The translations under genes were made by a program, and so were the position numbers. Shown here one piece after another: positions 3,627 to 46,751 of a DNA stretch of 64,000 nucleotides. The DNA is taken from positions 124,001 to 188,000 of the forward strand of contig NZ_JAIVAI010000003.1 of NCBI RefSeq assembly GCF_020171525.1, in the 5' to 3' direction. Origin of the DNA: Halobacillus yeomjeoni (GTDB taxonomy: Bacteria > Bacillota > Bacilli > Bacillales > Halobacillaceae). The stretch's first letter is position 1. The number at the start of each line of letters is the position of its first letter. The notes beneath the pieces are model-generated. The model made no database searches, was not told where the DNA came from, and saw nothing but the letters and a program-made list of their open reading frames with translations.

Positions 3627-3794
3627 ATGACCTTTACTATAATAATGATCGTTTGTGTAGGTATCGTGCTCGGTATTGCAGCCATGTTCGGTTTTGCCGT
3701 CTCCAAAGGCTACGAATATAAACACACAATCGACCCACTTCCCGAAAAAGCCGACAAATATGAACCAGACCATAAAAAAGCTGACGCCAATTAA
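3627..3794 (+). CDS. Small single-pass membrane protein (55 aa)
   Basis: The ORF starts at ATG 3627 behind an AAGGAAAGAG ribosome site and ends inside the terminator stem. The product is 55 residues: a hydrophobic helix at about residues 4-26 (rich in I, V, G, A and F) followed by a short, charged, probably cytoplasmic tail rich in K, D, E and Y. I do not recognise the family. It is downstream of ptsI on the same strand and shares the operon's terminator, so it is probably expressed with the PTS genes. No function can be assigned. Support comes from the ribosome site, the helix and the terminator placement. Confidence 0.6.
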   Translation: MTFTIIMIVCVGIVLGIAAMFGFAVSKGYEYKHTIDPLPEKADKYEPDHKKADAN

Positions 3795-3812
3795 ATGGTG
3801 TCAGCTTTTTTG
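3780..3812 (+). terminator. Rho-independent terminator of the PTS operon
   Basis: GCTGAC/GTCAGC stem extended by CC/GG pairs, followed by six T. The stop codon of the 55-aa ORF lies in the loop region. Confidence 0.85.
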
Positions 3813-3899
3813 TTCTTTAATATTAAGGCTTTGTTATTGCTTGGTGTTGTTATTTAACATGTGAGCTCATATCAGCTCTTTCTATCCTGGAATTTGTTT

Positions 3900-4023
3900 G
3901 AGGCGGCCTTTTAGAATGACTCCCTTTCCGTGGGGTACCGTGAGCCTCCTCAGGCTTCGCCTTCCGGGGTCTCACGATGTACCTTTATCCCACAGGAGTC
4001 TCGCCATTCTAAAAGGCCGCCTC
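3900..4023 (-). repeat. Structured repeat unit A1
   Basis: The outer arms are a perfect 19-bp inverted repeat (3900-3918 and 4005-4023). Read on the minus strand, the interior carries the boxes GACTCCTGTGGGA, GTGAGACCCCGGA, GAGGAGGCTCAC and CCCACGGAAAG. GTGGG/CCCAC, GTGAG/CTCAC and GGC-GAA-GCC can pair inside the outer stem. Confidence 0.8.
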
Positions 4024-4080
4024 TTCAAAGTAGAAGGGTCGGAAAAGCCATAACCGAAGTCCGTTACACCAACCACAAGC

Positions 4081-4202
4081 GGGATGGCAGGGAAAACAGG
4101 TAGACTCCTGCGGGAAAAAGGAACAAGGTGAGACCCCGGAGAACGAAGTTCGAGGAGGCTCAGCGTTCCCCGCGGAAAGCGGACTGTTTTCCCTGCCATC
4201 CC
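4081..4202 (+). repeat. Structured repeat unit A2
   Basis: The outer arms are a perfect 19-bp inverted repeat (4081-4099 and 4184-4202). The interior has the same four boxes as A1 but with GCGGG/CCCGC and GAAC-GAA-GTTC stems, that is, paired changes relative to A1. Confidence 0.8.
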
Positions 4203-4315
4203 ATGCTCTGAGTAAATAACGGACCGAACACCTAATCCCAGACAGGGACTATTTAGTAATCGTTTAAAATATCAACAATCAACTTTAACAGAGCCAATAT
4301 TTCATTCGTTATTCA

Positions 4316-13431: not shown

Positions 13432-13589
13432 AGACACTCCTTTTCTTATACCTGAGCGAAAAGTCTGATTATTTCGTATATTATAACACATGTACTCACT
13501 TGTGAAAACTACCATAATATAATCGTTTATTTAAGCTATCGAAATCTATGAGGGAATGAAAAATTGAACTTCAAGCATCCTGGAGCACA

Positions 13590-13707
13590 GGGGCGTCAGG
13601 GAAGGGGGAGACTTTCACGGGAAATGGAAACAGGCTCTGGCCCCACAGGGCTTCAGCCCGAGGGAGTTTGCCGGTTCCTCCGCAGGAAAGCGGATCCTTT
13701 CCATAAT
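13590..13707 (+). repeat. Degenerate structured repeat unit E
   Basis: The order of boxes matches units A2 and B2: GACTTTCACGGGAAATGG, GGCTCTGGCCCC, a GGCTTCAGCC hairpin, GAGGGAG and TCCGCAGGAAAGCGG. The outer arms are poorly paired, so it is an old or divergent member. It fills most of the interval between the small ORF and tRNA-Arg (13432-13929); I see no gene there. Confidence 0.5.
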
Positions 13708-13885
13708 TTGCTTCGGAATCTTCTTAGTTATTAGAGTGAAAAAGATATAACACCCTTATTAATTAGTTGTGAACCTATAAAATGGATGTTGAGCTTATCA
13801 AAAACTTAGGGTGGATTTAGAACACAGAGGTGTGTTAGCACTTTAGATTCGGAGAGGGAAATAAACAGCAGATTTTAATAGAACC

Positions 13886-30715: not shown

Positions 30716-32224
<1,509 letters not shown>

Positions 32225-32311
32225 CTACTCTTCTTTTTGGCTCTGTTATTGCTTCGTGTTGTTATTTCATATGTGAGCTTATACCAACTCTTTCTGTCCT
32301 AAAATTTGTGT

Positions 32312-32433
32312 GAGGATGCCTTGGGAATGACTCCCTTTCCGTGGGGTACCGTGAGCCTCCTCAGGCTGCGCCTTCCGGGGTCTCACGATGTACCTTTATC
32401 CCACAGGAGTCTCGCCATTCCCAAGGCCGCCTC
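32312..32433 (-). repeat. Structured repeat unit B1
   Basis: Outer arms GCCTTGGGAATG/CATTCCCAAGGC (32318-32329, 32416-32427), where copy A1 has CCTTTTAGAATG and its complement: a compensated change. The four internal boxes are intact on the minus strand. Confidence 0.78.
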
Positions 32434-32490
32434 TTCCAAGTAGAAGGGTCGGAAAGGCCATAGCCGAAGTCCGTTACACCAACTACGAAC

Positions 32491-32613
32491 GGGATGGCAG
32501 GGAAAACAGGTAGACTCCTGCGGGAAAAAGGAACAAGATGAGACCCCGGAGAACGAAGTTCAAGGAGGCTAAAGCGTTCCCCGCGGAAAGCGGACTGTTT
32601 TCCCTGCCATCCC
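32491..32613 (+). repeat. Structured repeat unit B2
   Basis: Same 19-bp outer arms as A2 (32491-32509 and 32595-32613) and the same internal boxes, with GCGGG/CCCGC and GAAC-GAA-GTTC stems. Confidence 0.8.
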
Positions 32614-32750
32614 ATGCTCTGTTCAAAAAACGGACCGAACCTATAATTCTACACGGAACTTTAACAGAGTCTTCTTTTTAACGCTGTTTAATACAGGGAT
32701 CATCCAAAAAATCTTAATGCAGTTTATTCGTCATTGAACATTAACACTAT

Positions 32751-33551
32751 TTAAGCCGCTTTGACTTTTTTCAACTCCACCCTCATGGATGCGAACAATA
32801 ACGCGATGATGAGAAGTGAAGAAATCCAAAACCACCCGGTCATGTTCGCCTTAAAAATCGCTTCGTAGAACAAACCGCCGTACATGCCTCCGATTACAGG
32901 TCCGATAATCGGAACCCAGGCGTATCCCCAATCCGAACTCCCTTTACCCGGAATCGGCAGCAGCGCGTGAGCAAGTCTCGGACCAAAATCACGTGCTGGA
33001 TTGATGGCATATCCCGTAGTTGCTCCGAGAGACATACCGATAGCTACAATCAACAGTCCTACAATCAATGGGTTCAACCCTTCTGTAAATTCATTGGCAC
33101 CGATGAAAAGAATCCCGATGACCAACACAAATGTTCCAATGACCTCACTGACCAGGTTCGAAATGGGGCTTCGAATCGCAGGATCGGTACAAAACACCGA
33201 CCTCATCGCTAATTTGTCTTCTGTGTCTTTCCAATGAGGCATGTAGTGGAAATAGACGATGGAGGCACCGATAAATGCTCCCATTGTTTGAGCTACGATG
33301 TACATCGGTACTTTCGACCATGGAAAGTCGCCAACCGTAGCTAAACCAAGGGTTACGGCAGGATTGATATGTGCCCCACTCACCTGCTTGACCGCATACA
33401 CCCCCATGGCGACAGCCAGTCCCCAGGCAACGGTAATCAGTACCCAGCTACCTTCGGCTTTTGTATGTTTCAAGTTGGCACCGGCTATGACCCCGCCACC
33501 GAGAATGATTAAGATCATAGTTCCGACCAGTTCTCCCATGAATTCTGTCAT
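32751..33551 (-). CDS. glpF: Glycerol uptake facilitator
   Basis: Aquaporin-family channel for glycerol in the cytoplasmic membrane. 266 residues with six hydrophobic helices and both half-helix motifs: NPA in SGAHINPAVTLG and NPARD in GYAINPARDFGPRLAH; the Asp after the second motif marks the glycerol-conducting branch. It follows glpP after a leader terminator, the usual GlpP-controlled arrangement. In B. subtilis glpFK are one operon; here repeat copy B separates them. Confidence 0.96.
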   Translation of the reverse strand: MTEFMGELVGTMILIILGGGVIAGANLKHTKAEGSWVLITVAWGLAVAMGVYAVKQVSGAHINPAVTLGLATVGDFPWSKVPMYIVAQTMGAFIGASIVYFHYMPHWKDTEDKLAMRSVFCTDPAIRSPISNLVSEVIGTFVLVIGILFIGANEFTEGLNPLIVGLLIVAIGMSLGATTGYAINPARDFGPRLAHALLPIPGKGSSDWGYAWVPIIGPVIGGMYGGLFYEAIFKANMTGWFWISSLLIIALLFASMRVELKKVKAA

Positions 33552-38287: not shown

Positions 38288-38730
38288 GGCTCTGATATGG
38301 ATTGGAGTTTTGCTTTTTTTCATGTGAGCTCATATCAGCTTTTTGTCCTAAAATTTGTATGAGGCAGCCTTGGGAATGAGACTCGTGTTCGATGGAATCT
38401 CTTCAACGTCTCCCAGACGATTCCTTCATCCTATAGAAGTATTCCTTTGAACAAAGTACGGGCTTAGAGGGATGGAAAAGTCATATACCTTTATAAAAAG
38501 AAGTCCGTTACACCAACTGGGAAAGGGAGGGAAGGGAAAACAGGTAGACTCCTGCGGGAAAAAGGAACAAGGTGAGACCCCGGAGAACGAAGTTCGAGGA
38601 GACTCAAGCGTCCCCCATGGAAAGCGGACTGTTTTCCCTTCCCTCCCATACTCTTAGCAAAGAACGGACCGAAACCACAATTCCCGACGGGTGGACCATC
38701 AAAATATCAACACCAGACTTTAACAGAGAC
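38288..38730. mobile_element. Composite palindromic repeat element, copy C (left half decayed)
   Basis: Ends GGCTCTGATA and TAACAGAGAC correspond to those of copies A and B, and the right half and parts of the flanks are strongly similar. The left unit (about 38365-38440) has diverged beyond reliable alignment. No convincing target duplication remains. It occupies most of the 666-bp hprK-yvlD interval, which has no gene. Confidence 0.65.
38525..38647 (+). repeat. Structured repeat unit C2
   Basis: Outer arms 38525-38543 and 38629-38647 are a perfect 19-bp inverted repeat but differ from A2/B2 (GAGGGAAGGG instead of GATGGCAGGG), with matching changes in the other arm. The inner GCGGG/CCCGC stem is disrupted (CCCAT). 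Confidence 0.78.
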
Positions 38731-46378: not shown

Positions 46379-46463
46379 GTTTCACTGATTTATCGAAGAG
46401 AAGATGGATTACGAAAGAGTGCATTTTTAAAGTGAGATTGTTTCCTTTTCCCTGGTTAGGAGC

Positions 46464-46585
46464 AGGAGGTCCGGGAAATCACTCGCTTTCCGTGGGCATG
46501 TGGTGAGCTTCCTCATGCTTCCGCCTTCCGGGATCTCACCGACCATTTTCATCCCACAGGAGTCTCGCAACTTCCCGGACCTCCT
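46464..46585 (-). repeat. Solo structured repeat unit D
   Basis: Perfect 14-bp outer arms (AGGAGGTCCGGGAA at 46464-46477 and complement at 46572-46585), different in sequence from the arms of A, B and C. On the minus strand all four internal boxes are present, with GTGGG/CCCAC and GGTGAG/CTCACC stems. A decayed linker follows (about 46590-46630, similar to the A/B linker), which suggests a lost partner unit. It lies in the 495-bp uvrB-prfC interval, which otherwise holds the LexA box and a terminator. Confidence 0.75.
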
Positions 46586-46751
46586 TTCATTAGTCAGAAG
46601 AACGGAAACACAGTGGCTCTAACACCACCTAAAAATTATACTCCCACCCTAGAATGTTGGCTGATTAGTAATACTTGGTAAAAGTCATTAGAAGCAAGAT
46701 CACCCCGTTGTAGAAGGTTGTCTTTTAGGCTGACACTTGACTGTTGAGTGC

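Follow-up and report, generated by a model that had tools for sequence, protein, structure and literature searches.

What kind of element can recur within 64 kb of DNA, end in an inverted repeat, encode no protein, and carry two structured units with facing 5′ ends? This question is raised by three stretches, copies A, B and C, in the window (the whole 64-kb stretch of Halobacillus yeomjeoni DNA analysed here). A sequence-only reading had proposed a non-autonomous element moved in trans and had likened its ends to those of ISL3-type transposons.

Copies in the window and their family in the genome

Copies A and B each contain two opposed units with facing 5′ ends, a conserved linker, and a terminal inverted repeat (TIR). 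This architecture, which had been described from the letters alone, was borne out by the sequence and by a covariance model of the unit, R1 (Table 1). The body of the element consists of two copies of a structured unit of ~127 nt. Facing 5′ ends are separated by 56 bp in copy A and 55 bp in copy B, and the copy A linker was retained in a 35-copy consensus. Copy C had been described as keeping its ends and one unit: the unit is present, and the ends are present but mutated. The absence of an encoded protein is supported in that the only open reading frames (ORFs) overlapping copy A were five of 41–75 codons, one of which starts outside the copy.

The window also holds a solo unit, with no GGCTCTGTTA ends in the surrounding sequence inspected, and a seventh, weak and diverged unit (13587–13714, 35.8 bits), with no GGCTCTGTTA ends in the nearby sequence examined. 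Copy B is flanked (window 32212–32751) by glycerol-kinase-like (FGGY) and glycerol-facilitator-like (MIP) genes on one strand. Given this arrangement, copy B may lie within a glpFK operon and may affect that operon.

Table 1. Positions of the element copies, their parts and the unit matches within the 64-kb window.
Feature	Position	Strand	Basis or remark
Composite MITE copy A, 469 bp	3827..4295	+	TIR at both ends
Left TIR of copy A, GGCTTTGTTATTGCTTGGTGTTGTTATT	3827..3854	+	
Right TIR of copy A	4268..4295	-	
Structured unit 1 of copy A	3900..4023	-	R1 108.8 bits
Structured unit 2 of copy A	4080..4203	+	R1 114 bits
Linker joining the facing 5′ ends of the copy A units, 56 bp	4024..4079	.	Gap between R1 matches
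Intrinsic-terminator-like hairpin and T-tract just upstream of the copy A insertion point	3780..3811	+	Sequence
Composite MITE copy B (L024), 433 bp	32239..32671	+	Between glpF-like and glpK-like genes
Target duplication of copy B, left, 8 bp, ttcttttt	32231..32238	.	
Target duplication of copy B, right, 8 bp, ttcttttt	32672..32679	.	
Structured unit 1 of copy B	32311..32434	-	R1 103.4 bits
Structured unit 2 of copy B	32490..32614	+	R1 96.7 bits
Copy C, decayed, mutated ends, one unit	about 38288..38730	+	Covariance model and sequence
Structured unit of copy C	38524..38648	+	R1 97.4 bits
Solo structured unit	46462..46587	-	R1 111.2 bits

Searching copy A against its own genome (G000; 3.27 Mb in 15 contigs) with BLAST returned 116 pieces at no fewer than 40 scored places, a floor because a first look showed 153 candidates. 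At least 460 of the 469 bases of copy A were covered at 22 places, namely A itself and 21 others with 82–94% identity. The terminal repeat proposed as GGCTYTGTTA/TAACAGAGYC proved to be real, but its length did not: the family TIR is imperfect and about 28 bp long, starts with GGCTCTGTTA, and has the consensus ends GGCTCTGTTATTGCTTGGTGTTGTTATT and GGCTCTGTTAAAGTCTGTTGTTGATATT. Comparing the ends of genome-wide hits, the check that had been suggested against coincidence, revealed this shared TIR together with a perfect 8-bp target duplication at 21 of 40 copies, versus 4 of 1560 left–right flank pairings across different copies. Allowing up to one mismatch raised these numbers to 24 of 40 and 21 of 1560, with at least five copies (L019, L025, L026, L033 and L035) counted as misses on account of one end that was not confidently placed. 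The duplication is AT-rich and constant in length. The 8-bp duplication reported for the window therefore holds for the family and for copy B, which is perfectly flanked by ttcttttt. Copy A has flanks identical at six of eight positions (aatattaa and aatatttc), an imperfect duplication, and copy C has no recognisable target duplication.

A query composed of the ends only matched 11 of 31 genomes (own included). It uncovered additional, shorter forms in the own genome and many copies in two genomes of the same genus (G013 and G018), where six of the seven loci compared had perfect 8-bp duplications. We also searched nine relatives with the joined flanks of eight occupied sites. For one site (L005), matches spanning the junction were found in four relatives. 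In the aligned sequence, the site was empty in two of them (G032 and G004), which had a single TTATGTAA and no insert, and it was uninterrupted but diverged in G003. The other seven sites had no match across the junction in the nine relatives. The shared TIR, the 8-bp duplications, and the empty L005 site together identify the element as a MITE: judged from sequence, the family comprising A, B and C is a short, non-autonomous, TIR-bounded DNA transposon.

The paired, TIR-bounded form is real and recurrent, as had been anticipated. Facing pairs lie inside TIRs in the 469-bp type, which occurs in the own genome and in G013 and G018, and in a second type of 576–581 bp in the own genome. The latter was found with a perfect duplication, ttaaatta (L220:1883-2463), and once with no matching duplication (L171:451-1026). 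The two types align mainly at their ends and units and have little other sequence in common. Four more loci (L059, L076, L235 and L237) have facing pairs whose ends were partial, absent, or searched in the carrier test only (described below). Neighbouring units on the same strand also exist (L188, L215 and L222), so facing is common and not a rule.

TIRs of the same kind also bound other sequences. At two loci in relatives (L047:496-1053, L047:1501-2033 and L048:972-1529) they enclose AT-rich bodies, which look like IS1595 derivatives with remnants of passenger genes; R1 found no unit at L047. In Allobacillus halotolerans (L080:6885-7185) the same TIR type surrounds a tandem array of short repeats, not a unit. 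Eight proteins near TIRs of the contig loci were ordinary enzymes or unassigned, with no transposase among them, and a phage search with a 183-bp element returned no match.

IS1595 partner elements and their target sites

When a 30-base TIR query was compared with plasmids, 21 records were returned, the best being a Pontibacillus plasmid. Its element (L135:3001-5204) is 2204 bp long, has TIRs of the matching type at both ends, and is flanked by the duplication attcgaaa. It carries a gene annotated as an IS1595 transposase, adjoining a glutamine synthetase fragment, whose product scores 209 bits against NF033547 (cut-off 75) and 50.9 bits against PF12762. The right end of the family-consensus MITE and the left end of this IS1595 element are identical at 27 of 28 bases. 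The search proposed in the sequence-only reading, for an insertion sequence with a matching TIR and an 8-bp duplication, thus had a positive outcome. The Pontibacillus element has two further genes, one encoding DUF6176, and is flanked by annotated pieces of glutamine synthetase.

Relatives of the Pontibacillus transposase occur in 121 of 397 genomes of the order (E ≤ 1e-20). Among 30 IS1595 loci fetched from relatives, 18 had a TIR pair with a perfect 8-bp duplication, two more had a TIR pair with 1–2 mismatches in the duplication, and a TIR pair was not found in 10. A MITE does not need an intact parent transposase in the same genome. No intact transposase of the Pontibacillus type was found in 22 genomes of the genus: pieces occur in 12 (own included) and none in the other 10, with each match spanning at most ~82 of 349 residues and many containing stops. 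The own genome has two pieces, both with stops. A profile search with PF12762 missed the relict in the own genome, which was recovered with the Pontibacillus protein as query. This relict (L171:1419-2497) has the IS1595 left TIR, the transposase start, and a passenger-like reading frame. It continues past an internal right TIR into the right half of a MITE, and its outer flanks both read aatttttt. In our reading, one IS end and one MITE end acted jointly in this single case.

No unit was found between the ends of 31 IS1595 loci searched; the sole unit match was partial, at the edge of L161 and outside its TIRs. It is therefore unlikely that MITE bodies arose by shortening of these IS, and an origin in which TIRs came to enclose a unit is likelier than simple deletion within an IS. 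On a Priestia plasmid, a 1303-bp element has TIRs of a second type, a duplication matching at seven of eight positions, and a broken IS1595-like gene (NF033547, 99 bits). Both the mover (IS1595) and the element class (MITE) are well supported. The proposal of a non-autonomous element moved in trans gains support accordingly from the 27 of 28 matching TIR bases, with IS1595 and not ISL3 as the mover.

MITE and IS1595 insertions were found to share a target preference. Around the duplicated 8 bp, MITE sites (n = 24) had T at −1 with frequency 0.83 and A at +1 with 0.88, and IS1595 sites (n = 19) had 0.89 for both. We then applied a home-made hairpin-plus-T test for terminators, leaving out the same five of 40 copies with an uncertain end. 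MITEs lay at a terminator-like T-tract at 16 of 35 sites, copy A (L001) being counted among those near a terminator, versus 8.9% of shifted and 10.2% of AT-matched positions in the same flanks. The corresponding count for IS1595 was 9 of 20 versus 3.7%, or 8 of 19 versus 3.5% of AT-matched control sites after removal of L146, a near-duplicate of L145. Some control positions are coding, so these figures probably overstate the enrichment over intergenic DNA. The shared preference is for T-rich sequence before and A-rich sequence after the insertion, often at the T-tract of a terminator-like hairpin.

These observations fit a mechanism in which an IS1595 transposase, known in the genus now only from pieces, would have bound the TIRs and inserted elements into terminator T-tracts. 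We propose that the 8-bp duplication would restore the T-tract, making insertion nearly harmless.

Fold, strand and pairing of the unit

To characterize the unit, we searched the loci with a profile of ten units. This gave 141 matches, 125 of them long, which were reduced to 25 non-redundant sequences and 21 aligned as set A1; four units (L097, which has an insert, L069, L023 and L056_2028) were excluded ahead of all counts. RNAalifold predicted 41 pairs in A1, 33 of them with double changes. Paired cells made up 89.7%, versus 69.6% in shuffles (0 of 500 as high), and covariation was 0.523, versus 0.189 when shuffled and at most 0.141 when the partner was slid. A second set, A2, contained 37 units from 29 loci in other genomes. 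These were found and fitted with the model but were not among the sequences used to build it. Paired cells in A2 reached 95.6%, versus 77.8% shuffled, and covariation was 0.464 versus 0.124. We consider it very probable that copies A, B and C belong to a composite IS1595-family MITE, moved in trans by an IS1595 transposase, and that their unit is a covarying fold of several helices.

The fold could be kept at the level of RNA or of DNA. Outer stems change in concert on both sides within one genome, as in TTTTAGAAT/ATTCTAAAA versus TTGGGAAT/ATTCCCAA. Such long, nearly perfect arms with coupled changes between copies would also be seen in a DNA palindrome (a cruciform or protein site) whose arms are kept matched by template switching, a process that can itself produce covariation, leaving the unit as mere structural filler of MITEs. 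Furthermore, both strands of the unit are predicted to fold stably. Against this, covariation extends to inner helices set apart by unpaired columns. G-U combinations also exceeded A-C by 41 to 9 in A1 and 26 to 7 in A2 after setting aside the commonest U-G pair, whereas shuffles gave ratios of ~1.3 and ~1.1, an excess that points to one strand, as in RNA. The U-G pair set aside is nearly fixed (A1, 16 of 21 sequences; A2, 33 of 37). An unselected palindrome is not expected to retain such strand-specific wobble, and we regard the DNA palindrome as rather unlikely. On the strength of covariation and strand preference we infer, with less certainty than the mover, that the unit is kept as an RNA fold. 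Rfam gave no match at the units of the window (gathering score) or at the units of six loci (E up to 1).

We also examined the genes around 38 units, from 42 loci, that had ORFs on both sides. The upstream gene was on the strand of the unit in 25 of 38 cases, and divergent settings were the rarest (4 of 38). This orientation fits, weakly, a role at the 3′ end of genes. If kept as RNA, the unit would act in read-through or 3′-end transcripts. Its head-to-head pairing would then make the element blind to direction, with read-through from either side meeting one sense unit. We infer that this is the use of pairing: one sense unit in transcripts from either side. It is possible, and we put it forward tentatively, that the unit represents a structured RNA of ~127 nt, not described before, that spans the order, occurs in about three quarters of the sampled Bacillales-type genomes, often dozens of times in one genome, and rides IS1595-type MITEs into gene 3′ ends, its head-to-head pair in this genus serving to make the element independent of orientation.

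Range, carriers and known relatives

The expectation that related units recur in other Bacillaceae turned out to be well founded. R1 matched 75 of 101 genomes of the order, own included (E ≤ 1e-5), with at least 34 scored places per genome in 31 of the 75. Across a phylum sample of 119 genomes including the own, none of the 118 others matched, at least three of which came from the same class. Both searches used strict filters under which weak matches are lost. A pattern scan of named genomes found 18 stretches in Domibacillus, Neobacillus, Metabacillus, Alteribacter, Allobacillus and others.

How the unit is carried was assessed with 29 top-scoring units, 28 from other genomes and one from the own, by looking for a TIR (at least 9 of 12 positions) and an 8-bp duplication with at most one mismatch. 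Both were present for 7 of 29 units versus 1 of 87 shuffles. Six of the seven had the MITE TIR, as visual inspection showed for L210 and L229 as well, and one had the second TIR type, which starts GCTGTTTTCGT. With only 7 of 29 having both, many units may spread or persist otherwise. The unit and the TIR might even be independent, the unit being an older, separately amplified repeat of the Bacillales that was often caught by chance between IS1595 ends. The 22 units that lack the combination would fit such a history, as would the carriage of the unit by two TIR types and several plasmid units whose limits are GTTGATT..AATCAAC and beyond which no TIR was recognised. However, single-unit MITEs with duplications are present in several genomes, including 182–183-bp elements of Bacillus sp. 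SJS that consist of the TIR and one unit with perfect 8-bp duplications (L090 and L096). The GTTGATT at the end of the unit in these short elements is similar to, or overlaps with, the inner TIR box TGTTGATTTT. In view of this, we find chance capture of an independent repeat improbable, to about the same degree as the palindrome.

Two records deserve separate mention. A contig titled Pseudomonas sp. ISL-84 (L092) has a unit and TIR beside T-box and L20 leaders, and its record name may be wrong. On a Priestia megaterium plasmid (L199:801-938), a unit lies beneath the annotated hypothetical protein WP_205664564.1, which is probably a false gene.

Movement by an ISL3-family transposase is highly improbable, since ISL3 elements of the genus, which also begin with GGCTCT and make 8-bp AT-rich duplications, differ from the MITE in the remainder of the TIR, with 14 and 10 matches out of 28 at the two ends of one genus element compared to 27 of 28 for IS1595. 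The resemblance noted does not extend past GGCTCT. A search for the ISL3 transposase (PF01610) covered 22 genus genomes and 299 from the order as well as the own genome, which had no match; 3 of the 22 genus genomes had one. The genus elements have ends GGCTCTAGAATATTTGTTGGGG and GGTTCTAAGTCAATTG, and ISL3 ends across genus and order are mostly GGCTCTANAATATNTGTTGGGG and GGTTCTANGTCAA. At all 29 ISL3 loci examined from the order (L106–L134), the stretch nearest to the MITE TIR still differed at 9 or more of 28 positions. IS256-type transposases (PF00872) matched 4 of 22 genus genomes and not the own; ends were compared at three of eight loci, where nothing linked IS256 to the MITE TIR.

Among known systems, the IS1595 family (NF033547 and PF12762) has its TIR, 8-bp duplication and target preference in common with the MITE. 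In contrast, the MITE has no transposase, and the unit is absent between the ends of the 31 IS1595 loci. An IS1595 MITE listed with ISHwa6 in Haloquadratum walsbyi is 165 bp long, with 7 copies, an inverted repeat of 25 and a direct repeat of 8 (PMC3852290). It is likewise a short, non-autonomous IS1595 derivative with 8-bp duplications but has an archaeal host and 7 copies, and no structured unit is mentioned in its listing (PMC3852290). IS1595 elements are described as over-represented between genes of the same direction (PMC9208149). Bcr1 and Bhal-1 are also repeated intergenic sequences of bacilli with a common predicted fold, whereas the description of them mentions neither TIRs nor a transposase nor a paired form (PMC2267715). 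Bhal-1 of Bacillus halodurans is 74 bp long, with 36 copies (PMC2267715), and by description it could be part of the same unit. Among titles and opening lines of abstracts in the open-licence PMC literature, no description of the element or unit was found.

Derived from IS1595, the MITE is a new member of an established kind of element, and the surprise is its cargo, a unit found across the order. Folded intergenic repeats of the Bacillaceae are here connected with IS1595 as their mover, with terminator T-tracts as their target, and with a fold that can be tested. The units may also account for some false small genes, such as the hypothetical protein on the Priestia plasmid. Should the unit prove to be an RNA, the order would harbour a very widespread, mobile structured RNA for which no Rfam match was found, and each insertion would add a defined RNA module to the 3′ end of a gene. 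The family would then amount to a natural experiment in which transposons spread a regulatory structure without breaking genes.
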